Below the pieces are notes generated by a model. The model did not search any database, had not been told where the DNA came from, and saw only the letters and a list, made by a program, of their open reading frames with translations. From Sphaerobacter thermophilus DSM 20745 (GTDB taxonomy: Bacteria > Chloroflexota > Chloroflexia > Thermomicrobiales > Thermomicrobiaceae), in the NCBI RefSeq assembly GCF_000024985.1, contig NC_013523.1:1-64000 (forward strand): DNA of 64,000 nt. Direction: 5' to 3'. Both the position numbers and the translations under genes were made by a program. This document shows, one piece after another, positions 17,366-30,701 of this stretch; positions within the stretch are counted from its first letter, which is position 1; each line of letters opens with the position of its first letter.

Positions 17366-17380
17366 GGAACGACTGAAGTC

Positions 17381-17545
17381 GTACGTCATACGTCATGCGT
17401 CATACGTCACCCGTCCCCCTCACTCTCGCCCCCTCTCAGACGGAGTCCACCAGGGGAGAGGGAAGACGTACGCAATACGGAATACGCAGTACGCAGTACC
17501 GGTGACGCATGACGGATGACGCATCACGCATGACGCATTACGTCA
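17381..17545. repeat. Composite heptad and C/G-rich hairpin repeat
   Basis: Heptads with TACGTCA and TGCGTCA (17381-17410) lead into an inverted form of the C-rich hairpin (CCCCTCACTCTCGCCCCCTC to CACCAGGGGAGAGGG). More heptads follow, of the TACGCAG and TGACGCA types (17467-17545). The array runs up to the stop codon of the acetyltransferase gene. Confidence 0.85.
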
Positions 17546-17546
17546 C

Positions 17547-18029
17547 TCACCGCCGCTTTTGCATCAGAATCCCGTGCCGGTTGCGGCCGTAATAGTTGCG
17601 GAGGTCGGCGACCGGGATATACCCGGCGCGACGATAGAGTTCCTGCGCTCCGGTATTCTTGTCCTCCACCATGAGCGTCACGTTGGGGGCGCCGAGCATC
17701 TCCTCCGCCGTCTTGAGGAGGAACCCGCCGATGCCGCGGCGGCGGAAGTCAGGGTCGACACAGAGGTTGAGGATACGGGCGCGGTCGCCGTTGCGGTCGG
17801 CGACGACGCAGCCGGCGATGCGTCCCTCGGCCCAGGCGACGAGGATCTGTGCCCGCGGCCAGAGATAGAGGACCAAGAGCGTGGCGATGCCGTAGGCCTG
17901 GCCCTCGCTGAAGCAACGGCGCTGGAGGGCGTGCAACGCGGGCAGGTCGCGTAGGCTCGCCAACGCGATCTCCACGCGCGCCGTACCGGTATCGACGCTG
18001 CGCACGATCTCTAGTGCTCGCCCCGCCAC
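17547..18029 (-). CDS. GNAT family N-acetyltransferase (RimI-like)
   Basis: The 160-residue product has a GNAT fold with the acetyl-CoA pyrophosphate loop in LCVDPDFRRRGIGGFLLKTA (about 92-111) and the downstream motif VEDKNTGAQELYRRAGYIPV, where N and Y are typical of RimI-like enzymes. The likely start is GTG at 18029. It lies just downstream of the holin-like gene on the same strand, 70 bases away, but probably is not part of the phage-derived island. The acceptor (protein N-terminus or small molecule) is unknown. Confidence 0.82.
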   Translation of the reverse strand: MAGRALEIVRSVDTGTARVEIALASLRDLPALHALQRRCFSEGQAYGIATLLVLYLWPRAQILVAWAEGRIAGCVVADRNGDRARILNLCVDPDFRRRGIGGFLLKTAEEMLGAPNVTLMVEDKNTGAQELYRRAGYIPVADLRNYYGRNRHGILMQKRR

Positions 18030-18099: not shown

Positions 18100-18405
18100 T
18101 CAATCCCGGCCGTGGTCGGCGGCCTGGCCCCGGCGGTAGGCTCGGGTCTGGGAGTAGACCCCGCTGGCGCCGAAACCCAGCACGATCGCGGCCAGCAGGA
18201 TGCGCACGCCCGGCGCGATCTCCGGCCAGATGGCCAGCGCCTCAGCCAGCGCCGCGATCAGCGCCCCGGCGACGACCGCCGCGGGCGTGGCCCATTGCGA
18301 CGGCATTCCGAGCCGCTTCAGCCCCTCTACGAGCAGTGGCACCAGCACCACTGCCGGCACGCCGAGCAGCACGATCCCGTTGGCGAAGTCGCTCGCACCG
18401 TCCAT
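18100..18405 (-). CDS. Small multi-pass membrane protein, holin-like
   Basis: This 101-residue protein has hydrophobic stretches at about 9-30, 40-60 and 66-85, a short N-terminus and a basic C-terminal tail (RAYRRGQAADHGRD). Size, topology and position directly after an endolysin gene are what is expected of a phage holin, which permeabilises the membrane so that endolysin reaches the wall. No holin family signature is recognised, so this rests on context. It is the last gene of the phage-derived island. Confidence 0.6.
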   Translation of the reverse strand: MDGASDFANGIVLLGVPAVVLVPLLVEGLKRLGMPSQWATPAAVVAGALIAALAEALAIWPEIAPGVRILLAAIVLGFGASGVYSQTRAYRRGQAADHGRD

Positions 18406-18466
18406 GGTCGTCTCCCTTCAACCCATGTCTGTTGAAACGTGGGTGTCGTACCGTATCCCACACGAG

Positions 18467-18590
18467 TTCTCCCCTCTCCCAACCTTGGGACAGGGGTCGG
18501 GGGTGAGGGCCGCTCTATCCGGCCAGGTTGACGCGCCAGAGCGGCGGTCGCGACCGCCGCGTACCAATGCGGCGGCTCGGTTTGCCGCAC
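18467..18590. repeat. C/G-rich hairpin repeat plus perfect 20-bp palindrome
   Basis: A C-rich/G-rich hairpin (CCCCTCTCCCAACCTTGGGA and following G-rich arm) spans 18467-18510. Next come the perfect palindrome gcggcggtcgcgaccgccgc at 18541-18560 and a second stem, tgcggc to gccgca, at 18569-18590. The block separates the endolysin and holin-like genes and could act as a terminator or processing site. Confidence 0.7.
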
Positions 18591-18615: not shown

Positions 18616-19428
18616 TCAGGAGGTGGGAGTGGTCTCCCGTGCTGCCAGCGCCGCGGCGCCGAGGCGGCGCAGCAGCACCTGGTACGGCGGCCGGTTCTCC
18701 GGCCACCACTCGAAGACGGCGCGCTCGAAGTACTGCACGGTGCGGCCGTCCTCCACGATCTCCTCGGTGAGGGGGTAGCCGAAGATCATCAGGCCGCCGT
18801 GCCGCTGCCAGTACTCCCAGAAGGCGCCGCCTACGAAGTGTCCCGTCTCGGTGAAGTAGTGTCCGTAGGCCACCCCGATCCGCCTCCCTTCCCGGTACGG
18901 CAAGACGAAGTCGGCCATCAGCGTGCCGGGGCAGCTCGTCGGTTGCAGCTCCTGATGGCCCCAAACCTCGTCGCCGTGCCCCAGATCCCGCCAGGTGTCG
19001 CAGAGGCGGCGCAGCGCCGCGAGCTGGGCGGCGGTCGCGTGCTGGTCACCGCCGATGAGGACCAGCACGGCCAGCGCCTCGGCGTTGGCCGGCCAGGCGC
19101 CGCAGTGCCAGAGCACGGCCTCGACGTCGCGGCACCAGTAGAGTGCGCCGGTCCGCCCCACCGCGAGGTGGTACATCAGCCCGTCCCCGGCGGTGTGGAG
19201 CCCGTTGCCGGGCATCTCGTCCCAGTCTCTGGCGACGTGGTAGCGCGCGGCCGCCTGGAGCACAGCCACCTCGTCCGCGTCCGGGGGAATCGCCGGGCCG
19301 TGGTAGTGGATCACGATGCCCCGCTTGCGGGCGAGCGGCACCGTCGTGGCCGGGCCACCGTGCGGGTTGGTCGCGAGCCGGGCGCGGAGGTCGATGAGCG
19401 GGAGTCGCTGCAGGCCGCCGGCGGTCAT
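18616..19428 (-). CDS. Peptidoglycan amidase (PGRP/Amidase_2) endolysin with Chloroflexota-type C-terminal repeat
   Basis: The 270-residue protein has an N-acetylmuramoyl-L-alanine amidase domain (about 25-165). Likely zinc ligands are His in GIVIHYHGP, His in AVLWHCGAW, and Cys in ELQPTSCPG preceded by GHQ. The C-terminal domain (about 180-255) with GHYFTETGHFVGGAFWEYWQ, FGYPLTEE and VQYFERAVFEW resembles the LGFP-like motif of secreted Chloroflexota proteins and probably binds wall. No signal peptide is seen, as expected for a holin-dependent endolysin. ATG at 19428 lies two bases from the upstream gene's stop. Confidence 0.85.
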   Translation of the reverse strand: MTAGGLQRLPLIDLRARLATNPHGGPATTVPLARKRGIVIHYHGPAIPPDADEVAVLQAAARYHVARDWDEMPGNGLHTAGDGLMYHLAVGRTGALYWCRDVEAVLWHCGAWPANAEALAVLVLIGGDQHATAAQLAALRRLCDTWRDLGHGDEVWGHQELQPTSCPGTLMADFVLPYREGRRIGVAYGHYFTETGHFVGGAFWEYWQRHGGLMIFGYPLTEEIVEDGRTVQYFERAVFEWWPENRPPYQVLLRRLGAAALAARETTPTS

Positions 19429-19430
19429 GC

Positions 19431-21179
19431 CTACACCTCCACCAGCGTCAGCGCGACCGTGCCGTCTCCCCAGCGTCCGGCGTCGTGCGGCTTCGGCACC
19501 TCCTCGCGGATCGCCGCGATCCGCACGGTGTACTCCACGCCGGTCCGGTCGTAGTCGATATCCCGGAACGTCACCACTCCGCCCGCCTCCCACGCCGCCC
19601 ACAGCGTCCGGGCGAGATCGCGTGCGTCGGCCTGCTCGACCGACCCGTCCCGTCGCACCACCTGGTCCTTACACTGCACCGCGAAGCTCCACCGACGCCG
19701 GCGCGACTCCGGGTCCACCGTCGAATGCTCCGCCCACACGCCCGCGATCACGGGACACCAGTCCGTGACATCCGAGAGCGTCACCCGTACTTGTAGCCAC
19801 CGCGACCGGGCACTCGGCGGCAGCGTCCCCACCACGACGTGCGTCCGTTTCTCGTCTCCATGGATCGTTGACGTCGCCACCGCGGTCCAGCTCAGCCCGC
19901 CGTCGACGCTGGCTTCGAGCGTCACGGTTACCGGGGAGGACGTCGCCCGCTCGTCCGGCCACGCCAGCTCCACGCCGACGAGGCGCCAGACTTTCTCAAC
20001 GTCCCGCGCCCCCGCGTCGAGCAGCGGCGTCACCAGCGTCACGGTGTCCCGCAGCCCCGGCCTGCCGGCGCGCGGGACCAGTTGCCACACCGCCGTTTGG
20101 TTGACGTTGCCACTCCGGCCGGCCAGCACATCCGCATCTTCCGCCGGCCCGGCGATCGCCACCGGATACCGGAACGCCGGCCCCTCATCCAGCAGCCACC
20201 AGCCCCGGCCATCCCACGCCCACAGGTCCGTCCCGTCGCCGTGTTCGTCTTCCACTGCCACGATCAGCCAGCGGCCAAGCCCGCACGCCCCGTACGTCGC
20301 ACGACCGCGCAGCCCCAGCGGCGCAAACACCTTGTCGCCGGGGTCGTACCGGTGCACTTCCTTGCCCAGCCAGGCGTACAGCGCTCCGTTGTGCCCAATC
20401 ATCCACGCGAAGTCATCGGCAAACCCCGCCTGCGGCGCAGTCGTCACGACGTCGGCGTCGACCCCCACTTCCGTCGCCACCGCCCGCCAGATCGCACCCC
20501 GCGTCACGATCCACACTTCCCCGTTGAACGGCGCCACGGCCACGATCTCCTGATCAAGGCTCACCGGCGTCCCCGCCAGCGCGTCCAGCCACGGCTCCCA
20601 CGCACACAGTTCCGGCTCACCACCGGTCGGCTGATCGATCAGCAGCGCCCCACGACCCGGCGCCACGATCGTTGCCGGCTCCGCGGCCGATGCCGTATAC
20701 GTGCCCGTCGCCAGGTCGTAGATCGTCGGCCGCTCCCCCGGCCCGTGCACGAACCCCACGAAACCCCGGCTCACCGCCAGCCCCGTGCACGGCGCCGCCA
20801 GCGCCTGCACCAGCGCCAGCCCGTCATAGGCCCCACCGGCCGACGTCACCCGATACAACCCCGTCCCGTTCGCCACGTAGGTGGTCCCGCCGTGCACAAA
20901 GGAGAAGCTGGGCCGCTCCGGATCAAACGCCGGCGTCACGCTCTCCGTCCGATCCTGCCGCCGCGGCCCTGCCTGCACCCCTTGACTGTCCAGCGCCGGC
21001 CACGCGCCTACACCCCGCCAGAACCGATCCCGCTCCAGTTGCGCCGCCCGACCACCACCGCCGTAGAAGTCGAACAGGCGCACCCGTCCCGTCTGCGCCG
21101 GGTCCGGTGCCGACTGCCGCCGCTCGTACGTCCCGGCGCGCACCATGTAGCCCCGGCCCGCGATCACCACGTCATACAT
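19431..21179 (-). CDS. Phage-type structural protein, propeller-like, function unknown
   Basis: I do not recognise a named family for this 582-residue protein. The central part (about 90-400) is built of short beta repeats with aromatic and Gly-Asp turns (TYVANGTGLYRV, GEVWIVTRGAIWRA, GALYAWLGKEVHRYD), like a beta-propeller. The C-terminal 150 residues are beta-rich and end in a domain with VTFRDIDYDRTGVEYTV. AAGGAG precedes ATG at 21179. Its place between the MuF-like gene and the endolysin suggests a minor structural, stopper or receptor-facing protein. No tape-measure or tail tube gene accompanies it. Confidence 0.6.
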   Translation of the reverse strand: MYDVVIAGRGYMVRAGTYERRQSAPDPAQTGRVRLFDFYGGGGRAAQLERDRFWRGVGAWPALDSQGVQAGPRRQDRTESVTPAFDPERPSFSFVHGGTTYVANGTGLYRVTSAGGAYDGLALVQALAAPCTGLAVSRGFVGFVHGPGERPTIYDLATGTYTASAAEPATIVAPGRGALLIDQPTGGEPELCAWEPWLDALAGTPVSLDQEIVAVAPFNGEVWIVTRGAIWRAVATEVGVDADVVTTAPQAGFADDFAWMIGHNGALYAWLGKEVHRYDPGDKVFAPLGLRGRATYGACGLGRWLIVAVEDEHGDGTDLWAWDGRGWWLLDEGPAFRYPVAIAGPAEDADVLAGRSGNVNQTAVWQLVPRAGRPGLRDTVTLVTPLLDAGARDVEKVWRLVGVELAWPDERATSSPVTVTLEASVDGGLSWTAVATSTIHGDEKRTHVVVGTLPPSARSRWLQVRVTLSDVTDWCPVIAGVWAEHSTVDPESRRRRWSFAVQCKDQVVRRDGSVEQADARDLARTLWAAWEAGGVVTFRDIDYDRTGVEYTVRIAAIREEVPKPHDAGRWGDGTVALTLVEV

Positions 21180-21182
21180 GGC

Positions 21183-21566
21183 TCACTCCTTCGGCCGGCC
21201 GCCTCCGCCGCTCGGCCGACTCGGGTCGGCCCGGCTCACGCACTCCGAGTACGCGTAAACACGCCGGCAGCGGCACCCTGGATGCAGCGGCGGCTGCGGC
21301 CCCACGCCCTCGATGTACCGCGTCCCGTGCAGCGGCCCGCACACCGGGCAGACCCGCTCGTCCTGCGCCGTCCGGTACTCCTCCCAGTGGAGCCACCGCG
21401 TACATGGCCGCGTCGTCGGCGGCGCCGGCGGCCCGGGATCCGGCCCCACGATCGGCGTCGGCGGGTTGCCCGGCACGGCGCCGGTGCCGGGGTCGAGCAA
21501 GGCAGCTTCGTAGCGCGCCCAGCCGCCTCCCGGGCGGCTGGACGGCGCGGGTTCGCTTGGTGTCAT
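21183..21566 (-). CDS. MuF-like Cys/His C-terminal domain, probable truncated minor head protein
   Basis: The 127-residue product is Pro-rich up to about residue 60 and then carries CPVCGPLHGTRY followed by PPLHPGCRCRR. The C-x-x-C plus H-P-x-C-x-C pattern is the hallmark of the C-terminal zinc-like region of Mu gpF/SPP1 gp7 minor head proteins. Full-length relatives are over 250 residues, so this looks like a C-terminal remnant. The start at 21566 has no strong ribosome site and lies beside a heptad repeat, consistent with repeat insertion having replaced the 5' part. Confidence 0.6.
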   Translation of the reverse strand: MTPSEPAPSSRPGGGWARYEAALLDPGTGAVPGNPPTPIVGPDPGPPAPPTTRPCTRWLHWEEYRTAQDERVCPVCGPLHGTRYIEGVGPQPPLHPGCRCRRVYAYSECVSRADPSRPSGGGGRPKE

Positions 21567-21579
21567 AGGTATGGTCCCG

Positions 21580-21703
21580 TCATGCGTGATGCGTGTTCCG
21601 TATTGCGTATTGCGTGTTTCTCCCCTCTCCCCTGGTGGGCTCCGTCCGAGCGGGGCCGGGGGTGAGGGGGACGGATGACGCACGACGCATGACGCATCAC
21701 GCA
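21580..21703. repeat. Composite repeat between MuF-like and terminase genes
   Basis: Heptads (TGCGTGA, TGCGTAT) at 21583-21615 are followed by the hairpin CCCTGGTGGGCTCCGTCCGA with its G-rich arm, then TGACGCA/ACGCATC heptads at 21674-21703. The repeat ends at the terminase stop codon. Confidence 0.88.
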
Positions 21704-23197
21704 TCATCTCCCCCTCCCCCGCGCCAGGCGCGGGCGCCAGTCCTGCTCGTCGAGGACGACGCAGAGCGCCGCGGAGATGAGCAGGTCGTCGTGGGTCCGT
21801 GGGTCGGGCACCGACCAGCTCATCAGGCGGTGCGAGCCGGGCCGCACCGTGTAGGTGCAGGCCCGGACCTGCCGCCAGAAGAGCGCGGCGAGCGCGCTCG
21901 CTTCGGGATCGTCCGGAGCCGGGGCGTGGTCTTTGAAGCGGCCGCTGTCCACGGCGCTGAGGAAGGACCAGCCGAGCTGGCTCTTGCTGGTGAGGGAGAA
22001 GATAAAGGGGAGCACCGCCCGGTCGCCGAGCGATGCGCGGAGGAAGCTCGCGAGGCCCGCCCCGACTCCGGTCGCATCCACGACGACGTAGCGGGCACGC
22101 CAGACATGGCGCGCCAGGTCGACCAACTGCGCGTGCAGCGCGGTGTGCTTGACGCCGGTCCAGAGGTAGCGCCGCACGACCTCGTAGCGCGGGCGCGCGT
22201 CCTGGTGCACCACCCGCACGACCGTCAATGCCGTGCTGTCCCGCCGCGCGGCCGGGTCGTAGGCCCGGCCGGGATCGACGCTCTCCTCTTCCTCGCCCGC
22301 GACATCGAGCAGGAGCGCATACTCCTCACCCGGCACGGCACGGGTGAGCGGCGGGTGGTCGCCCTGCATCTGCCCCTGGCGGCTGGGTGGGAAGAGCCCG
22401 CCCTGGCCGTCCAGTTCCAGTAGCTCGTACTCCGTGCGGATGAACGGGTGGTCGGCCCCCAGCAGAGCGATCTGGCGCTCCACGTAGCGCCCGTAGCTGG
22501 GCACCTCCTGCGCGACGACCTGCCAGGGAACGCGGAAGAGCCGTCGCCGACCGTCCTCGGCCTCCAGCGCCGCCAGGTGGCGCATCTGGCGGGCGAGCAG
22601 CGTGTCGGCGGTCCACACCGTCCCCATGGAGAGGGTCACGGCATCGGTCGATGCCGCCATCGGCGCGAAGACGCTGTCCCAGCGCTCCGGCCTGATGTCC
22701 TGGCACTCGTTGGCGACGAGCAGTAGCGAGGCGGTCTGCCCGCGCGCGTTGCTCTGCGGTCCGGCTGAGACGAAGTGGCAGGCTGCGCGGCCGAGCCGCA
22801 CGATGGTGCCGTCTTGCACCCGTGGCCGGAGTCCGAGAGCGCGGGCACGCTCGCACGTCAGCCGCTCGATGAGCCGGTCCCGCGCCAGGATGCCCTGGGG
22901 CCGCAGGGTGGGGAGCGCCACGACGATTGAGCCGCCCGCGCGCTGGAACAGGGTCAGCAGGTAGGCGATGAGCTGGGCGAGCGCCTCGTCCTTGCCCGCC
23001 TGGCGGGAGAAGACGATGCCGAAGTCGGCGGGGTGCGAGCGGTCGCCGCGGGCGCGGGCCACAACGGCCGCCGCCACGGCGCGCATCGGCTCCGCCTGGT
23101 AGCGCCGCGGGCGGCGGGAGGGGAAGAGCGCGCGGGCGAAGGCCACCGGGTCCGCCAGGAGCGCCCGCATCCCGGCGATCGTCGCCCGCTCGATCAC
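21704..23197 (-). CDS. Phage terminase large subunit (TerL-like)
   Basis: The 497-residue DNA-packaging motor has an N-terminal ATPase with Walker A SRQAGKDEA (residues 64-72), Walker B LLLVANECQDI, and a coupling-motif region LSMGTVW. The C-terminal RNase H-like nuclease has acidic positions in LLLDVAGEEEE, VVDATGVGAGLA and THDDLLISAAL. All catalytic motifs appear intact and the length is normal. GTG at 23197 overlaps the upstream stop (GTGA) and starts at the conserved region. In phages TerL docks on the portal and fills the capsid with DNA; here it follows the portal and connector genes. Confidence 0.88.
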   Translation of the reverse strand: MIERATIAGMRALLADPVAFARALFPSRRPRRYQAEPMRAVAAAVVARARGDRSHPADFGIVFSRQAGKDEALAQLIAYLLTLFQRAGGSIVVALPTLRPQGILARDRLIERLTCERARALGLRPRVQDGTIVRLGRAACHFVSAGPQSNARGQTASLLLVANECQDIRPERWDSVFAPMAASTDAVTLSMGTVWTADTLLARQMRHLAALEAEDGRRRLFRVPWQVVAQEVPSYGRYVERQIALLGADHPFIRTEYELLELDGQGGLFPPSRQGQMQGDHPPLTRAVPGEEYALLLDVAGEEEESVDPGRAYDPAARRDSTALTVVRVVHQDARPRYEVVRRYLWTGVKHTALHAQLVDLARHVWRARYVVVDATGVGAGLASFLRASLGDRAVLPFIFSLTSKSQLGWSFLSAVDSGRFKDHAPAPDDPEASALAALFWRQVRACTYTVRPGSHRLMSWSVPDPRTHDDLLISAALCVVLDEQDWRPRLARGRGR

Positions 23198-23802
23198 CCG
23201 CTGACCTCCACGGTGCGCGTCCGCAGGCGCCGCCGCAGGTCGCGCTGCAGGGCCTGGTAGTCGCGCCGCGCAGCCTCCAGCCGGCTCTCGTAGCGGGGCG
23301 GCAGCGGCCCACGCTTCCACTCCTCGCGCGCCCGGAACTCAAGCGCCCACACCAGCGCCCCGGTCAGGATCAACGCCTCCGCGGCCGGCGGCACCGGGAA
23401 CGGCTCATCGCCGGTCGCCGGAAAGGTCCGGGTCGCGGCGTAGTAGACCGTGTAGCTGCCCGCTACCAATGGCTGTGTGAACCGGAGCGCACCCGCGAAC
23501 TGCTCCCAGGCCAGCTCCTCCCCGGCCACGACGCGCGCCGGGGCTGCCGCGCGCCGCGGGATGACCTGCCCGCCCGGGGCAACGACCCGCGCCACGTCCA
23601 GTGTGTCCTCCGGCAGGGCGATCTCGGTTACTCCCGCGTCGACCGTCGCGGTCAGGACCCGTTCCGCCGGCTCCCACCGGCTGTACCGCTCCAGCGACCA
23701 GCGCAACGCCTCGTCCAGCTCTGCATCGGTCCACAGCCCCACCGTGCCGTCGTCCTCCAGCCACAGCCGGAGCCGGTCGCGCATCTGGCTCAGTGTCGGC
23801 AT
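23194..23802 (-). CDS. Head-tail connector-like protein
   Basis: The 202-residue protein begins MPTLSQMRDRLRLWLEDDGT and has WTDAELDEALRWSLERYSRW, a helical pattern seen in phage head completion/connector proteins (gp6-like adaptors). A beta-rich middle follows, then a C-terminal basic helix (SRLEAARRDYQALQRDLRRR). It lies between portal and terminase and overlaps terminase by four bases. The assignment is from pattern and context; no catalytic motif is present. Confidence 0.6.
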   Translation of the reverse strand: MPTLSQMRDRLRLWLEDDGTVGLWTDAELDEALRWSLERYSRWEPAERVLTATVDAGVTEIALPEDTLDVARVVAPGGQVIPRRAAAPARVVAGEELAWEQFAGALRFTQPLVAGSYTVYYAATRTFPATGDEPFPVPPAAEALILTGALVWALEFRAREEWKRGPLPPRYESRLEAARRDYQALQRDLRRRLRTRTVEVSG

Positions 23803-23806
23803 ATAC

Positions 23807-23920
23807 CCCTCACCCCCGACCCCTCTCCCCTTGTGGGAGAGGGGAGCATGACGCAATACGCAGTACGGCTTACGTTCCCCCTCTCCCGGAGTTGGGTAAG
23901 GGGGCTAGGGGGTGAGGGCC
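23807..23920. repeat. Two C/G-rich hairpins and heptads overlapping the portal 3' end
   Basis: One hairpin (CACCCCCGACCCCTCTCCCC to GGGAGAGGGG) lies at 23810-23847, heptads (ACGCAAT, ACGCAGT) at 23850-23868, and a second hairpin at 23876-23920. The portal stop codon and its last few codons (Ala-Leu-Thr-Pro) are formed by the second copy. Confidence 0.85.
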
Positions 23921-25263
23921 GCTCCCTCTTCCCCCAATGCCTCCCGTTCCTCCAGCACCCGGGACCACTCGGCATCAGGTTCGGCGTCGCCGAGGAGGGT
24001 CATGGCCGTGCGGCGACTGTGTATCCCGGCGTGGACCAGGGCCGTCTCGCTGCGGACCAGCGCCTCGCGGTCGCTCGGCAGGATCGGGCCCCAGATGACG
24101 CCGGTGCGCCGCACCCCGCCGAAGTCCATCCCGCCGAAGCGCTCCATCAGGTCCAGCAGCATCCGGTTGCGGCGGCGGTAGACGCTGTCCCACACCCGCC
24201 GCTTGCGCTGGACCTTTTGCACCAGCGGCTGGATCTCCACCTCCAGCGCCGTGCCGGACAGGTTGCGCCCCGAGTCGCCGAAGGCGCTCCGCGGCGTTTC
24301 GGCCAGGTCGTAGAGGGCGCGGTACAGCAGCTCCACGTAGTCGATATGCAGCCGCACCCCACCGCCGCTCAGCATGTCGAGCAGGTAGGCCTTGCTGTCT
24401 TCCGGGAGCTCCCAGACGGCGCCTTCGTCGGCGCGGATGCCGTCCGACCCAGTGACGTTCTCGAGCACGACGATCGGGTTGCCCGACACCTGCAAGATGC
24501 GGCTGATGACCGTCATCCGCCGGTTGAGTTCCCGGCACACGTCCAGCAGGTCGGCCAGGTCGCTCTCGCCCCAGAGCGAGTGCGGCTTGGCGATGTTGGG
24601 GAAGATGACATAGGGAATCCACCCGTAGGGGTTCGGCTCGTCGCGGACGATCACGCCCGCGACCTCGAAGCGCACCCGCTCGGCCGTCCAGTCCTCGACG
24701 ACGCGCACCGCGCCGGGACCGGCGCCGACGTCGACGCCGAACAGGTCGGACGCCTCTTCGGCCGGCAGCGTGTAGAGCTGCACCACGCGGCGCACGGCGC
24801 GGACGTTGTCGGGCGCCGACCAGGCCCACAGTGTCGCGGGGTCGACCGAGACCACCAGCGGCCGGCCGGCGTCGCGGTCCCAGGTCACCTTGAAGGCGCC
24901 GTCGCCCAGGACGCTGGCGTCGATGAGGGTTTGGGTATCGAGCCCGTGCAGGTCCTGCTCGGCCGCCAGGTCGTTCAGCGCCGTCTCGGCCCGCCGCGCC
25001 TGCTCCGGGCTGACGCCGTCGACCGGCGGGACGGTGAACACCACCGGTTCCGGGAAGACGTAGCTGGCGGCTTTGCGCACCAGGGCGCGGGCGTAGTTGA
25101 TGGTCAACTGGGTTTCCCCGGCCCGGCGTCGCCGATCCCACTGCCGCCCTTCGTAGAAGTCGAGCAGTTCCCGGTAGCGGGTCATCCGGTCGACATCGTG
25201 GGCCTGCACCCAGTCGGCCAGCGTCGCGGGGACCACCTCGCCGCTGATCGGCATAAGCGTCAC
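23905..25263 (-). CDS. Phage portal protein (SPP1 gp6-like)
   Basis: The 452-residue portal forms the dodecameric DNA gate at a capsid vertex. Recognisable parts are the N-terminal YRELLDFYEGRQWDRRRR, the helical TQLTINYARALVRKAASYVF, the wing domain, and the clip/stem region with VQKVQRKRRVWDSVYRRRN. Length fits this portal family. GTG at 25263 has AAGGAGG six bases upstream. Its extreme C-terminus is encoded by an inserted repeat. It follows the capsid gene across a repeat-filled gap. Confidence 0.88.
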   Translation of the reverse strand: MTLMPISGEVVPATLADWVQAHDVDRMTRYRELLDFYEGRQWDRRRRAGETQLTINYARALVRKAASYVFPEPVVFTVPPVDGVSPEQARRAETALNDLAAEQDLHGLDTQTLIDASVLGDGAFKVTWDRDAGRPLVVSVDPATLWAWSAPDNVRAVRRVVQLYTLPAEEASDLFGVDVGAGPGAVRVVEDWTAERVRFEVAGVIVRDEPNPYGWIPYVIFPNIAKPHSLWGESDLADLLDVCRELNRRMTVISRILQVSGNPIVVLENVTGSDGIRADEGAVWELPEDSKAYLLDMLSGGGVRLHIDYVELLYRALYDLAETPRSAFGDSGRNLSGTALEVEIQPLVQKVQRKRRVWDSVYRRRNRMLLDLMERFGGMDFGGVRRTGVIWGPILPSDREALVRSETALVHAGIHSRRTAMTLLGDAEPDAEWSRVLEEREALGEEGAALTP

Positions 25264-25295
25264 GGATACCTCCTTGGGGATGATGTGTGGCGACG

Positions 25296-25399
25296 GCCCT
25301 CACCCCCTGGTCCCCTCTCCCAACTCTGGGAGATGGGGAACAGGACGACGAATCACTCCCCTCTCTCAAACTTGGGAGAGGGGCCGGGGGTGAGGGCGG
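25296..25399. repeat. Two C/G-rich hairpin repeats between portal and capsid genes
   Basis: One copy (CCCTCACCCCCTGGTCCCCT onward, 25297-25338) and a second copy (CTCCCCTCTCTCAAACTTGG onward, 25355-25399) are arranged in opposite sense. Together they fill the gap between the portal start and the capsid stop. Confidence 0.88.
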
Positions 25400-25407
25400 T
25401 CCCCGCC

Positions 25408-26295
25408 TCACGCCCCTTCGATGCCACGCAGGCGGGCGACGCCCAGCTCGCTGAAGAGGGCGAGGCCCGCGTACCACTTGATGCGGTGCCGGCTGGCGTC
25501 CTTGGTTTCCAGTTCACCGATCGCCTCGATCTGGATGCCGCCGTTCTCGATCCCCATCACGCCGGATGGACCGAACTTGACGGCGTAGATGCTGGAGAGG
25601 TTGCTGCCGGCGCCTAGCGTCTCGTCGATCGGGATGAAGTCGTCGACGATGATCGGGATGCCGTCGTAGAAGAGGGCACGGCGACCGAAGGCGTCGACGT
25701 CCGTCTCGAGCAGGTTGCCGCTGGTGCGGCGGAGCTGCGAGAGCTTGCGCCGCGTGCGCTTGTGCATCAGCAGCGCGTCCGGCCGCCCGGGCCGGACGAG
25801 GTCGATCAGCTCGTCCATCAGGTCGAGGGTGAGAGCACCGCCGTCGGGCCCGGGCTCCAGCGTCTGGGATGCCGGGACGAGCGTCGCGAGGCCGTCGAAT
25901 GCCTTGGGATTGGCAGTGCTGTCGCCGTTGAAGAAGGTGTCGCTGAAGAGGTGCGCGACGGCCTTGGCTCGGCTCTCGATGACGATCGCCTCCAGGTCGT
26001 TCGGGTCGGCGTACGTCTGCTGCAGAAAGTTGTCGACATCCGCGTCGCCGCCCAGGATCTTGAGCGCGACCGTGACCTGCGTGAACTCAGGCGTCGCCTC
26101 CTGCCAGGTGTCGCCGACGTCGTAGAACTGCGCGGCGGGCATCGTCTTCTCGCGGTTGTAGGTGAGCGCGGTGCCGGTGACGTTCATGAAGGGGAGCAGC
26201 GTCAGCACGCTCGACTCCATCACGATCGTCTCGATCACGCCGCGCAGCAACATGTCGTTCGTCAGCTTTGCCGCTTCCACCTTGGTCAGTGCCAT
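25408..26295 (-). CDS. HK97-fold major capsid protein
   Basis: This 295-residue protein begins MALTKVEAAKLTNDMLLRGV and contains TYNREKTMPAAQFYDVGDTW, KILGGDADVDNFLQQTYAD and a C-terminal region with GIENGGIQIEAIGE. This pattern is typical of short HK97-type coat proteins of siphovirus-like prophages that lack a long delta domain. ATG at 26295 follows GAGGGGAGGG. An encapsulin is less likely because the portal, terminase and scaffold-like genes are adjacent. Confidence 0.85.
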   Translation of the reverse strand: MALTKVEAAKLTNDMLLRGVIETIVMESSVLTLLPFMNVTGTALTYNREKTMPAAQFYDVGDTWQEATPEFTQVTVALKILGGDADVDNFLQQTYADPNDLEAIVIESRAKAVAHLFSDTFFNGDSTANPKAFDGLATLVPASQTLEPGPDGGALTLDLMDELIDLVRPGRPDALLMHKRTRRKLSQLRRTSGNLLETDVDAFGRRALFYDGIPIIVDDFIPIDETLGAGSNLSSIYAVKFGPSGVMGIENGGIQIEAIGELETKDASRHRIKWYAGLALFSELGVARLRGIEGA

Positions 26296-26332
26296 TGGAA
26301 ATCCCTCCCCTCGTGGTACGTCATGGCGGGAC

Positions 26333-26421
26333 GGCCCTCACCCCCGCTCCGTACTGCGTATTGCGTACTTCCCCCTCTCCCCTTGTGGGCTCCGTCCGAG
26401 AGGGGCCGGGGGTGAGGGGTT
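26333..26421. repeat. Composite repeat between capsid and scaffold-like genes
   Basis: CCCTCACCCCCGCTCCGTAC is followed by heptads TGCGTAT/TGCGTAC, then CCCCTTGTGGGCTCCGTCCG and the G-rich arm. Here the heptads sit inside the hairpin unit, showing that the two parts are physically linked. Confidence 0.88.
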
Positions 26422-26427
26422 CTCCCG

Positions 26428-26805
26428 CTACCCCCGCCGCCGTCGCAGTCCCTCGGCGATCTTGGCGCTCGCCGACAGGCGCTCGACGTGGGCGGGAGAT
26501 GGCTGCCGGCCGGGCTGGCCGGCCGGGATACCGGGCGCGTTGCTCGGCTGGCTCCGGATGCTCTCGGCGATGCGGGCGTAGGCGGCCCGAGCCGGCTCGA
26601 TGCTCTCCATCAGTTCGTCGAAGGTGGTTCCCTTGATCATGTCTGGCACCACGTCGGGGTGCGCCGCCAGGATCAACTCGCGGATGCGCTCCAGGTCGAA
26701 CCCCTCCGTGCCGTCCGCGCCCTGCTCCGAGTGCTTCCCAGGCTCCGTGTGCTCCGGGCTCTCGCTCTCCGGGGGGCGCTCGACCACGTCATCCGGCCGT
26801 TCCAT
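26428..26805 (-). CDS. Acidic scaffold-like protein
   Basis: The 125-residue product is acidic and Glu/Pro-rich for the first 35 residues, then helical (FDLERIRELILAAHPDVVPD, TTFDELMESIEPARAAYARI), and ends with a basic tail GLRRRRG. An acidic N-terminus with a basic helical C-terminus directly upstream of the major capsid gene is the usual profile of a phage scaffolding protein, which shapes procapsids. AGGAGGAACC precedes ATG at 26805. No sequence family is recognised. Confidence 0.55.
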   Translation of the reverse strand: MERPDDVVERPPESESPEHTEPGKHSEQGADGTEGFDLERIRELILAAHPDVVPDMIKGTTFDELMESIEPARAAYARIAESIRSQPSNAPGIPAGQPGRQPSPAHVERLSASAKIAEGLRRRRG

Positions 26806-26820
26806 GGTTCCTCCTGTTCC

Positions 26821-26993
26821 GTGAGTCGTGTTGCGTGTTTCGTGTTCCGTATTGCGTAGTGCGTATTGCGTGCGGTCTAGTCCATGTTCCGTGTCGCGAG
26901 CGATAACTCACGCATCACGCATCACGCATCACGCATGACGCATGACGGGGCACGGAGCACGGAACACGCAACACGCAATACTCACCACGCACC
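26821..26993. repeat. Long heptanucleotide array in the phage-derived island
   Basis: Heptads of the TGCGTAT/TGCGTGT kind (26830-26872) and then of the ATCACGC/ATGACGC kind (26909-26947) and ACACGCA/ATACTCA kind (26963-26990) occupy almost the whole 193-base gap. No hairpin unit is present in this copy. Confidence 0.85.
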
Positions 26994-26998
26994 TTGCC

Positions 26999-27250
26999 TC
27001 ACCCCACTCCGGCCAGCCGGAGCAGGACCTCGATCGCGATCGACCCGATCACCAGCGTGAAGAGGTAGTTGATCCGCGTCTTGATCTCCCGCAGCTCGGC
27101 TGTGAGATCCTCGACGTGGGCGCGGGTGACGGCGCCGTAGGCGCAGCCGGGTTCCAGATCGACCCCTGCGCGGCGCCCGGCGCGCGTCACGATCTCCCGC
27201 AGGGTCGCCCCGCTGCGCAGCGCGGCCTGCCGGGACTCCTCGCTGCTCAT
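26999..27250 (-). CDS. Small single-pass membrane protein, XhlA-like
   Basis: The 83-residue protein has an amphipathic helix (VEDLTAELREIKTRINYLF) followed by one C-terminal membrane span (TLVIGSIAIEVLLRLAGVG). This is the layout of phage-associated XhlA/haemolysin-type holin accessory proteins. ATG at 27250 has GGAGGTGATCC upstream and overlaps the upstream stop. A role in lysis is inferred from topology and context only. Confidence 0.55.
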   Translation of the reverse strand: MSSEESRQAALRSGATLREIVTRAGRRAGVDLEPGCAYGAVTRAHVEDLTAELREIKTRINYLFTLVIGSIAIEVLLRLAGVG

Positions 27251-27663
27251 GGATCACCTCCGAGTCCAAGTTCGAGCAGCACCTGCGTCATCGCCGCTGT
27301 CAACCCCTCTGCCGTCCCGGCCGCCAGCGTCCGCTGGGTGCGGATTGCGCGGACCACGGCATCGACGATCCGCGGGATGCTCGCGGCCAGCCGCGCCGGG
27401 TCGTCCTCTTCGGCCAGCACCCGCGCCAGGACCAGCCGGAGCGCGCTGATCTCCTCCGCCAGCGACTCCTCGGTTCCCGACTGCGCTAGCAGCTCGGCCA
27501 CCCGCTGCTCGATCAACTCGCGAACGCCCGGTGCCAGAACCGGCGCGTTCTGCGCGGCCGGACCGGCCCGGATGCGCGTCGGGTCGTGTGCCCAGCAGTA
27601 GTCCCGCCCTCGCATGGCCCAGGCGCGGCAGCCGGGCCGGGCGCAGGGTCGTCCTCGTCCCAT
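27247..27663 (-). CDS. First gene of the phage-derived island, Cys/His-motif protein
   Basis: The 138-residue product starts with a compact CARPGCRAWAMRGRDYCWAH motif (C-x4-C-x10-C-x2-H), a likely zinc knuckle, followed by helices (VRELIEQRVAELLAQ, EEISALRLVLARVLAEEDD). A DNA-binding small terminase-like role would fit its position ahead of the head genes, but I do not recognise a family. GAGGGGAG precedes ATG at 27663. It lies 69 bases downstream of a LexA-type box and overlaps the next gene by four bases. Confidence 0.55.
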   Translation of the reverse strand: MGRGRPCARPGCRAWAMRGRDYCWAHDPTRIRAGPAAQNAPVLAPGVRELIEQRVAELLAQSGTEESLAEEISALRLVLARVLAEEDDPARLAASIPRIVDAVVRAIRTQRTLAAGTAEGLTAAMTQVLLELGLGGDP

Positions 27664-28094: not shown

Positions 28095-29927
28095 ATGGCG
28101 ATCGGCCATATCTTGTTCAGTCTTATTTCCACGCTCCCGGCGCTGGTGCTCTGGCGCCTGGTTGCCCGCGTCCCGCTCGCGGGGAACGAGCGGCGTGCCT
28201 GGTTGCTCCTCGCGCTCGGCATGACCCTGAACGCCGCCGCCGACTGGATGTGGGCGTGGTACGAACTCGTCGCCCAGGCGGCGCCTTTCCCGTCCGCCGC
28301 CGACGTTGGCTACCTGCTCTCCTATCCCCCGATCGTTGCGGGACTGCTCCTCATGCCCGGTGTCTCGCCGCAACGGGGCGGTCGCGCGGAGCTGTGGCTC
28401 GACGCGCTGATGGTCGTGGTCGGCGGCTTCATGGTCCTGTGGTACGTCGTGCTCTACCCTACGGCGACGGCCGAGAACGCGTCGCTGCTGGAGTGGGTGC
28501 TCTCCGTGGCGTATCCCCTCGCCGACGTGCTGGTGCTCTTCGGTGCCGCCGTGGCGCTCGTCCGGTTGCCCGATGCCCGGCGCACGACCGCCCACATCCT
28601 CCTCTGCGTCGGCTTCATCGCCTTCCTGGTGGCGGACACCGGCTGGTCCCGCCTGTGGTTGGCCGGAGCCTACAACCCCGAGTCCTGGCCCGGCATTGCC
28701 TACGTGCTGTGCTACCTGTTGGTCGTCGCGGCTGCGCACGTGCGCGAACGGGTCGAGCGTATGCCGCCCGATGTGGTGCCCCGCCCCGGCACGCGTGGCT
28801 GGCGCTGGCGGCTGAGCATCTCGAGCGCGGCGTCCCTGCTCGGCGTCGGCTTTCTGCTTCTCGCCGGGCTACGGCAGGGGAGTCTATCCCTCGCGGGAAT
28901 GCTCTTCGGCGTCGCGGCCCTCCTGACCCTGGTGCTTCTGCGCCAGGGGCTGATCATCCGCGAGAACGCCGCGCTGCTCGCGCGAACTGTGGCCCTCGCG
29001 CAGGCGCTCCGGCGGAGCGAACGGCGATTCCGCGCGCTGGTCCAGAATGTGTCGGACCTGATCGTGATCCTCGGCCCCGACGGCACGATCCGCTACGTCA
29101 GCCCCGCTGCGGAGCACCTCCTCGGCTACCCGCCGGACGAGCTCCAGGGCACCGTCGTCTACCCGCTGGTGCATCCGGACGACCTGTCGCTCCTGAGGCG
29201 CGAGCTGGCGCACATCCTGAAGCAGCCCGGTGTGGTGAGGCGCGTCGAGCTCCGGGCGCGGCACCGCGACGGATCCTGGCATCACCTGGAGGCCGCCGTC
29301 AGCAACCTCCTGACCGACCCGGATGTCGGCGGCGTCGTCGCAGTCATGCGCGACATCTGCGAGCGGAAGGAGCTGGAGGCCCAACTTCGCCACCAGGCGT
29401 TCCATGATCCGCTGACTGGTCTGCCGAACCGGACCCTCTTCATGCACCGGGTCGATCTCGCGTTCGCCGAGGCTGAGCGCAACGGCCGGACCGCCGCCCT
29501 CGTCTTCATCGACCTCGATGACTTCAAGTCCGTGAACGACACGTTCGGGCATGAGGTCGGCGACTTGCTCCTGGTCAAGGTCGGTCAGCGGCTGGCCGCC
29601 ACGCTGCGCGACGGCGACATCGCGGCGCGCCTGGGTGGCGACGAGTTTGCCGTTCTCTTCGACGATGTCGAGAGTCACGCGGACGCCGTTGCCGCGGCGA
29701 ACCGGCTGCTCGCCGCGCTGAGTCAGCCCATCCGCGCGGCCGGGCGGGACTTCACCGTGACCCCCAGTATCGGGCTTGCGGTGCACAACCCCGGTATCTC
29801 TCCCCGGGAGATGCTGCGCCGTGCCGATCATGCCATGTACCATGCGAAGGCGCGCGGGCGCGGCTGCCTGGAGATCTACACGGCCGGGTTGAACGTGGCC
29901 GGCTGGAAGCAGGTGGCACAGGTGTAA
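28095..29927 (+). CDS. Membrane-bound PAS-GGDEF diguanylate cyclase
   Basis: The roughly 610-residue protein makes cyclic di-GMP from two GTP. About eight N-terminal membrane helices (1-300) resemble a MASE-type sensor. A PAS domain follows (about 315-425, FRALVQNVSDLIVILGPDG and a PAC end RDICERKELE), then the GGDEF domain with DPLTGLPNRTLF, intact LGGDEFAV and an inhibitory RxxD site (RDGD) exactly five residues before GGDEF, so product inhibition is expected. No EAL domain is present. Start is ATG 28095 or TTG 28074; neither has a strong ribosome site. Confidence 0.92.
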   Translation: MAIGHILFSLISTLPALVLWRLVARVPLAGNERRAWLLLALGMTLNAAADWMWAWYELVAQAAPFPSAADVGYLLSYPPIVAGLLLMPGVSPQRGGRAELWLDALMVVVGGFMVLWYVVLYPTATAENASLLEWVLSVAYPLADVLVLFGAAVALVRLPDARRTTAHILLCVGFIAFLVADTGWSRLWLAGAYNPESWPGIAYVLCYLLVVAAAHVRERVERMPPDVVPRPGTRGWRWRLSISSAASLLGVGFLLLAGLRQGSLSLAGMLFGVAALLTLVLLRQGLIIRENAALLARTVALAQALRRSERRFRALVQNVSDLIVILGPDGTIRYVSPAAEHLLGYPPDELQGTVVYPLVHPDDLSLLRRELAHILKQPGVVRRVELRARHRDGSWHHLEAAVSNLLTDPDVGGVVAVMRDICERKELEAQLRHQAFHDPLTGLPNRTLFMHRVDLAFAEAERNGRTAALVFIDLDDFKSVNDTFGHEVGDLLLVKVGQRLAATLRDGDIAARLGGDEFAVLFDDVESHADAVAAANRLLAALSQPIRAAGRDFTVTPSIGLAVHNPGISPREMLRRADHAMYHAKARGRGCLEIYTAGLNVAGWKQVAQV

Positions 29928-30580: not shown

Positions 30581-30597
30581 TGCGTCACCCGCTGAGC

Positions 30598-30701
30598 TCC
30601 CCCTCTCCCCTGGTGGGAGAGGGGGCCGGGGGTGAGGGGAACGTGTGACGCATGACGCATGACGCATAACGCATGACGCATAACGCATGACGTGTGACGT
30701 C
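30598..30701. repeat. Composite repeat: hairpin and seven-unit heptad array
   Basis: The hairpin CCCCTGGTGGGAGAGGGGGC with CCGGGGGTGAGGGG (30600-30640) is followed by a clean tandem of TGACGCA and TAACGCA heptads (about 30648-30700). It ends exactly at the queF stop codon. Confidence 0.9.

Follow-up and report, generated by a model that had tools for sequence, protein, structure and literature searches.

An island of phage-derived genes in Sphaerobacter thermophilus DSM 20745 appears to be an ancient, domesticated particle cluster, whose gaps were colonised later, within the genus Sphaerobacter, by intergenic repeats that are probably cargo-less forms of elements carrying 23S-rRNA-IVP genes. 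We put the probability of this reading at roughly 0.7. The window analysed here is the 64,000-nucleotide stretch from positions 1-64,000 of contig NC_013523.1, and the genome (designated G000; 3,993,764 bp) consists of two contigs of 2,741,033 and 1,252,731 bp. An earlier note on this DNA had described a composite of tandem heptads and hairpins, also found around host genes, in most gaps of the island. For comparison, we used the two other Sphaerobacter genomes G001 and G002, the closest named relatives being Sphaerobacter metagenome-assembled genomes (MAGs), and further relatives including G004, G005, G009, G017, G022 and G031; the relatives are mostly draft MAGs.

Results

The island is shared across the order and inherited with the host

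Among 28 complete genomes sampled from the order, the major capsid protein was found in 20 and the terminase large subunit (TerL) in 24, normally as one copy, and relatives of the capsid occur across Chloroflexota, including Tepidiforma. Identities of capsid/rpoB to the G000 sequences were 0.98/0.98, 0.88/0.93, 0.80/0.79, 0.79/0.79 and 0.66/0.73 in five relatives, and the correlation between capsid and rpoB observed in a Mantel test was reached by none of 2000 permutations. The capsid hence diverges roughly as quickly as rpoB, and TerL faster. The trees of capsid, TerL and rpoB contain the same family groupings. In G002, the island is found at the same locus and between the same flanking host genes. 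Ratios of nonsynonymous to synonymous substitution rates (dN/dS, NG86 method) between G000 and G002 were 0.13 for the capsid, 0.14 for the portal, 0.16 for TerL, 0.15 for the putative nozzle and 0.19 for the amidase, as compared to 0.16 for a phosphate transporter and 0.06 for QueF of the host, with similar dS for most genes. The Walker A/B-like motifs of TerL (SRQxGKDE, VANExQDI) and its nuclease aspartates are invariant in all ten aligned sequences, which represent seven genera. These patterns indicate that the island is under purifying selection.

The island does not behave as an active prophage: the same locus is occupied in the congener G002, the nearest relatives among phage records are distant (best match 42% for the capsid and 29% for TerL), and no integrase was seen in the island. 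Among the genes seen in or beside it, none for replication or integration of its own was recognised. The earlier note had taken the repeats as a sign of long residence rather than recent integration. The island is indeed a long-term resident, but it is orthology that provides this evidence; the repeats by themselves would be no proof of age, since species with 98% identical capsids differ in repeat content. As the island is inherited with the host across the whole order, it is not a recent virus but a candidate for a DNA-transfer particle owned by the host. Judged by its genes, it looks like a domesticated short-tailed particle and a candidate gene transfer agent (GTA). Traits of GTAs that we found are the phage origin of the head and packaging genes, long-term vertical inheritance and, in relatives, distribution over several loci, which is a common trait of GTAs.

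The island gaps hold repeats of the host genome

Two components recur: heptads arranged in tandem, which follow the pattern ACG[C/G/T]A[A/T/G]N, and a C-rich hairpin (CCCTCACCCC...CCCCTCTCCC...GGGAGAGGGG). All five island gaps for which the composite had been claimed do hold repeats, and two further sites had been overlooked (Table 1). Following the suggestion to count the repeats on the genome scale, we sampled 60 evenly spaced 20-kb stretches, corresponding to 1.2 Mb or 30% of the G000 genome, with genes called by a simple codon model. The sample contained 58 heptad arrays, 57 of which are non-coding, and 78 C-rich hairpins, 72 of them non-coding, while second-order Markov sequence of the same size yielded 0 and 1, respectively. 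The repeats are hence host-wide and nearly always non-coding and, as they occur in all three Sphaerobacter genomes, those around the island genes are host repeats, in agreement with the earlier note. The hairpin search pattern misses a degenerate arm at the 3' end of the portal gene as well as the hairpin at 18466-18510, and the reversed heptad pattern was unusable as a control, because a heptad read backwards is another heptad of the same family.

In the host sample, repeats were present in 54 of the 415 gaps between co-directional genes and in 20 of the 100 convergent gaps, but in only 4 of the 152 divergent ones. Genome-wide, they start at a median distance of 20 bp past the upstream stop codon and 86 bp ahead of the next start, confirming that they abut stop codons. 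It had also been proposed that a repeat forms the C-terminus of the portal protein, and this is the case: the first arm of the hairpin (CCCTCACCCCCTAG) codes for the residues ALTP and provides the stop codon. This ending is common to G000, G001 and G002 and was found in no other genus examined. Heptad clusters containing both orientations had them in stem-forming order in 35 of 35 cases (p = 6e-11), with a C-rich hairpin inside the loop in 26 of the 35; another 34 clusters have a single orientation. Predicted folding of the gap transcripts of the window gave z values from -2.2 to -7.4. Taken together, the invariable order, the hairpin in the loop and the strong folds suggest that the full composite is a single long nested stem. 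A search of the window against Rfam returned zero matches.

Repeats are concentrated in the island. Six of its eight non-divergent gaps of at least 50 bp hold one, or seven when the hairpin at 18466-18510 is counted, versus 74 of 515 in the host sample. Per co-directional gene pair, the frequencies are 5/11 in the island and 54/697 in the sample (Fisher p = 0.001), and the difference persists when only the repeat-rich part of the genome is considered (p = 0.005). The island, with up to 6 clusters per 10 kb, is denser in repeats than any other stretch sampled. However, the second replicon has 5 in its menaquinone operon, which is nearly as dense, so that density cannot be attributed to foreign DNA alone. 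On the main replicon, the region from ~0.66 to 1.93 Mb, around the GC-skew switch near 1.3 Mb, is poor in repeats (10 clusters in 20 stretches vs 49 in the other 21 stretches of this replicon).

The repeats are younger than the island

One heptad test pattern matched 310, 275 and 152 times in the three Sphaerobacter genomes, but only 0 to 4 times in each of 38 others of the order. The heptads are therefore specific to Sphaerobacter and, as the island is order-wide, the repeats must have entered it when it was already present. Comparison of the island with relatives with and without repeats, which the earlier note had recommended, agrees with this sequence of events, as the same gaps are filled in Sphaerobacter and mostly short elsewhere. 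The gap between the capsid and portal genes measures 130-193 bp in genomes with repeats versus 3-65 bp in relatives without them. Portal and adaptor genes are separated by 98-117 bp in Sphaerobacter, whereas in four of six relatives without repeats (G004, G005, G009 and G017) they overlap or lie 3 bp apart. The occupants of a given gap also change between congeners: in the capsid-portal gap there are two hairpins in G000 and three in G001, while G002 has heptads surrounding a single hairpin, and the gap between g2 and the scaffold gene (Table 1) contains heptads in G000 and G002 and only a hairpin in G001-type DNA. A comparison of G000 with G001 shows the same swapping of elements in two host gaps.

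The additional proposal that repeats displaced the 5' part of the MuF-like gene is not supported, because the short form is ancestral. In both G001 and G002, as well as in other genera, among them heptad-free ones, the same short MuF-like protein of about 94-130 aa is encoded after TerL or the adaptor. The form with the CPxC...HPxCRC motif is 96% identical in G001 and 60% identical in G002, and occurs in other genera too.

Inverted short-period arrays flank 23S-rRNA-IVP genes

In one host gap, in which G000 has hairpins, G001 carries heptad arms around a gene for a 145-aa protein of the 23S-rRNA-IVP family (PF05635), a four-helix bundle. G000 possesses exactly one IVP gene, located in the menaquinone operon and likewise inside inverted heptad arms; the loci differ between both genomes. 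The arms share the heptad vocabulary of the gap repeats. In G022 and G031, IVP genes are flanked by inverted short-period arrays, mostly of period 7, with a different heptad for each copy. As this link was first seen post hoc, it was tested on new loci, using cut-offs for short-period arrays that we set ourselves. At 29 prospective IVP loci from the phylum, period-7 arrays were detected in 13 of 58 flanks, other periods in 0-2 of 58, and displaced control flanks scored in 1 of 58. At least three inverted 9-mers were present at 17 of the 29 loci, as compared to 2 of 29 for the control flanks. Eight further IVP loci were read on plasmids of cyanobacteria and Azospirillum. At seven of them, the two flanks have three or more inverted 9-mers in common; most loci have period 7 and two have period 8, and several reside within operons, e.g. 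cas6-cas4. Inverted arrays of period 7, sometimes 8, commonly flank IVP genes outside rRNA across Chloroflexota and on the plasmids examined, with a unit particular to each locus. We therefore propose that the gap repeats are cargo-less forms of such elements. A limited search of the open-access literature turned up no earlier report of this link. On the cyanobacterial plasmids, IVP genes are also located inside CRISPR operons, in between cas6/cas4 or cas10/cmr3.

Gene content of the island

The genes of the island and the repeats in its gaps are compiled in Table 1. In other families, g1 and g2 form a block with TerL (g1-g2-TerL). No family matches above the cut-off were obtained for g1, no Pfam matches above the cut-off for g2, and zero family matches for the scaffold-like protein. 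For the 582-aa protein, AlphaFold modelling on seven homologues predicted a beta-propeller (pLDDT 73). Its best PDB matches in Foldseek were tails of Pa223, Pan3, P22, T7 and Pam1, and matches in the viral library include P22 Gp10; according to the model, the protein is a putative P22/T7-type nozzle. The gene set together with this podovirus-like fold points to a compact short-tailed particle with lysis genes. A long-tailed particle was rejected, PhageMin_Tail being absent from G000 and four other genomes searched and present only in G002.

A PAS-GGDEF gene (28095-29927) separates the island from its host neighbours in G000 and not in G002; in several other genera, large proteins with domains like those of its product adjoin the capsid cluster. 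A text search of the S. thermophilus genome paper (PMC3035262) showed that phage is unmentioned there and one CRISPR is reported.

Table 1. Genes and repeats of the island and one host gap for comparison, in window coordinates.
Feature	Position	Strand	Evidence and remarks
Full composite, convergent gap: outer heptads, inner heptads, C-rich hairpin	17366..17546		z -6.7; absent from earlier list
GNAT acetyltransferase, host-type, at island edge	17547..18029	-	PF00583; same place in G002
Holin-like protein	18100..18405	-	PF06946 7e-4, just under cut-off
C-rich hairpin, amidase-holin gap	18466..18510	-	sequence; same gap in G002 also has a repeat; absent from earlier list
N-acetylmuramoyl-L-alanine amidase (endolysin)	18616..19428	-	Amidase_2 3e-12
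582-aa beta-propeller protein, putative podovirus tail nozzle/hub	19431..21179	-	AlphaFold and Foldseek
Short MuF-like protein, CPxC...HPxCRC	21183..21568	-	Phage_Mu_F 5e-4, below family cut-off
Gap repeat: heptad arm, C-rich hairpin, heptad arm	21569..21703	-	RNA fold z -4.9
TerL	21704..23203	-	PF17289, phrog_2
SU10-type head-tail adaptor	23194..23802	-	PF24175 1e-12
Gap repeat: two C-rich hairpins, few heptads between	23803..23920	-	z -5.2; overlaps portal 3' end
Portal protein, SPP1 Gp6-like	23905..25263	-	phrog_64 4e-35; SPP1_portal 4e-20
Gap repeat: two nested C-rich hairpins, no heptads	25264..25407	-	z -7.4
Major capsid protein, HK97 fold	25408..26295	-	phrog_212 3e-80; Phage_capsid 2e-12
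Gap repeat: C-rich hairpin and heptads	26296..26427	-	z -2.7
Scaffold-like protein, 125 aa	26428..26805	-	precedes capsid; conserved in 9 genera
Gap repeat: inverted stem-forming heptad arms, without C-rich hairpin	26806..26998	-	RNA fold z -3.9
g2, 83 aa; membrane helix at C-terminus, by eye similar to holin/XhlA	26999..27250	-	orthologues in 10 genera
g1, 138 aa, N-terminal Cys/His motif	27247..27663	-	orthologues in 17 of 21 genomes examined, and in more
Host-gap composite	30581..30701		between fumarase C-terminal gene and queF

Discussion

We propose that the arrangement arose in two layers. The first would be an ancient, vertically inherited cluster of head, packaging and lysis genes from a short-tailed phage, kept by the host under selection and most likely encoding a GTA-like particle. 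Intergenic elements of the host would have entered its gaps much later, within the Sphaerobacter lineage. Such an element would consist of two arrays of 7-bp period in inverted orientation, in many cases enclosing a C-rich hairpin in their loop, and would lie directly past a stop codon in a transcribed gap. The copies in the gaps would probably be cargo-less, similar to miniature inverted-repeat transposable elements, while the full form carries the gene for the 23S-rRNA-IVP four-helix bundle in its loop. At the RNA level, long stems would result between cistrons, plausibly serving as structures for RNase III or at mRNA ends. That cargo-less copies move, that the stems act on RNA and that particles are made and transfer DNA is what we infer from these data. 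A more general version is that bacterial intergenic heptads are largely arms or cargo-less copies of one widespread element class, defined by the inverted short-period (7, sometimes 8) architecture around an IVP gene rather than by the sequence of the arms, which would have colonised even an ancient and still-used gene-transfer particle of Chloroflexota. We regard this version as quite conceivable, albeit tentative.

Several observations weigh against our proposal. Capsid and TerL were not found in 8 and 4, respectively, of the 28 complete relatives, which may be due to gaps in the assemblies or to true loss. Other genera have a split or shuffled cluster, with its genes dispersed among host genes, and in several of them TerL and capsid are apart or even on different contigs, as opposed to the single cluster of Sphaerobacter. 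The C-rich hairpin occurs throughout the order, and the data do not tie it to IVP; 12 of the 29 prospective IVP loci have fewer than three inverted 9-mers. Finally, each Sphaerobacter genome contains one IVP gene but hundreds of heptad units, so that slippage might suffice to generate the arrays, with no mobile element involved.

The latter point leads to the strongest alternative, in which the gap repeats are immobile, generated by slippage in place or by hairpin-templated copying, and kept since a stem past the stop codon ends or protects the mRNA. Strong stems, location at gene 3' ends, avoidance of divergent gaps and the occupation of the same gaps with differing content in three congeners would all be explained in this way. 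Moreover, GGGAATC heptads of Xanthomonas behave alike, with no role found for them (PMC4692102). This alternative is possible, but we doubt it, because whole element types are swapped within a gap (hairpins versus the IVP-bearing heptad element), the same heptad vocabulary is dispersed genome-wide, and the IVP-bearing form occupies different loci in two species.

The island could also be a decaying, unused prophage relic, in which repeats gather without counter-selection. The term prophage relics was used by the authors of the Thermomicrobium roseum genome for similar phage genes (PMC2615216), and the fact that no integrase or replication genes were seen as well as the highest repeat density among the sampled regions would fit. 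We nevertheless consider a relic unlikely: reading frames are intact, dN/dS is as low as for the host transporter, the catalytic motifs of TerL are invariant in 10 genomes, the cluster is kept across the order, and core operons such as that for menaquinone synthesis are almost as repeat-dense. Mobilisation of the repeats as repetitive extragenic palindromic (REP) elements by a REP-associated tyrosine transposase (RAYT, Y1 type) is very improbable. The repeats are palindromic and intergenic, and G000 and G001 have one Y1_Tnp gene each, but these genes lack flanking heptads or C-rich hairpins, whereas REPs flank RAYT genes, and the Y1 genes of G002 differ although the repeats are the same. That the repeats are phage-borne, which according to the earlier note would follow from their presence at the same places in free phages, is hardly credible, as there were 0 nucleotide matches in 50,697 phage records, the islands of other genera have no heptads, and the one IMG/VR contig with the repeats in the same gaps (IMGVR_UViG_3300005135_000010) is 99.98% identical over 5.9 kb to a Sphaerobacter MAG contig; such islands are probably misfiled as viruses.

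If our proposal is correct, a domesticated short-tailed particle occurring across the order would extend GTAs to Chloroflexota; in the literature searched, we found no GTA reports on Thermomicrobia or Dehalococcoidia. The link between arrays and IVP genes would suggest where heptameric intergenic repeats come from and place IVP proteins in a context. A further lesson is that repeats in gaps say little about age on their own, while orthology is strong evidence.

Comparison with known systems

The island resembles the GTAs RcGTA and CcGTA (PMC11841831) in its phage-derived head and packaging genes, vertical inheritance, lysis genes and location at more than one locus in relatives. It differs from them in belonging to Chloroflexota, in being an unrelated cluster with no known function, and in its short-tailed plan with a putative P22/T7-type nozzle and an SU10-type adaptor. 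With the podoviruses P22, T7 and SU10 it has in common the predicted propeller fold of the nozzle, the SU10 adaptor family and the portal; unlike in these phages, no tail spikes, replication or integration genes were found in the cluster, and there are no close sequence relatives.

The 23S rRNA intervening sequence (IVS) of Coxiella contains tandem heptads (GACAGAT) ahead of the S23 gene, and its stem is cut by RNase III (PMC4990558). The Sphaerobacter element likewise has a PF05635-type gene within a stem of inverted ends, although this holds only for the gene-bearing copies of G000 and G001, the island copies lacking the gene. In contrast to the IVS, it has arms of period-7 arrays, most copies are geneless, and the elements are not located within 23S rRNA but intergenic between protein genes. 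Heptads of the form GGGNATC in Xanthomonas and Nostoc (PMC4692102) are alike in their 7-base unit, intergenic position near the upstream gene and rarity between divergent genes; they often occupy the same gaps in two species with differing length and sequence, and are sometimes inverted. Their unit is another one, and the parts of that report consulted describe no link to IVP genes. The Sphaerobacter repeats, for their part, often consist of inverted pairs nested around a loop that contains a C-rich hairpin, and they also reside inside a phage-derived cluster.

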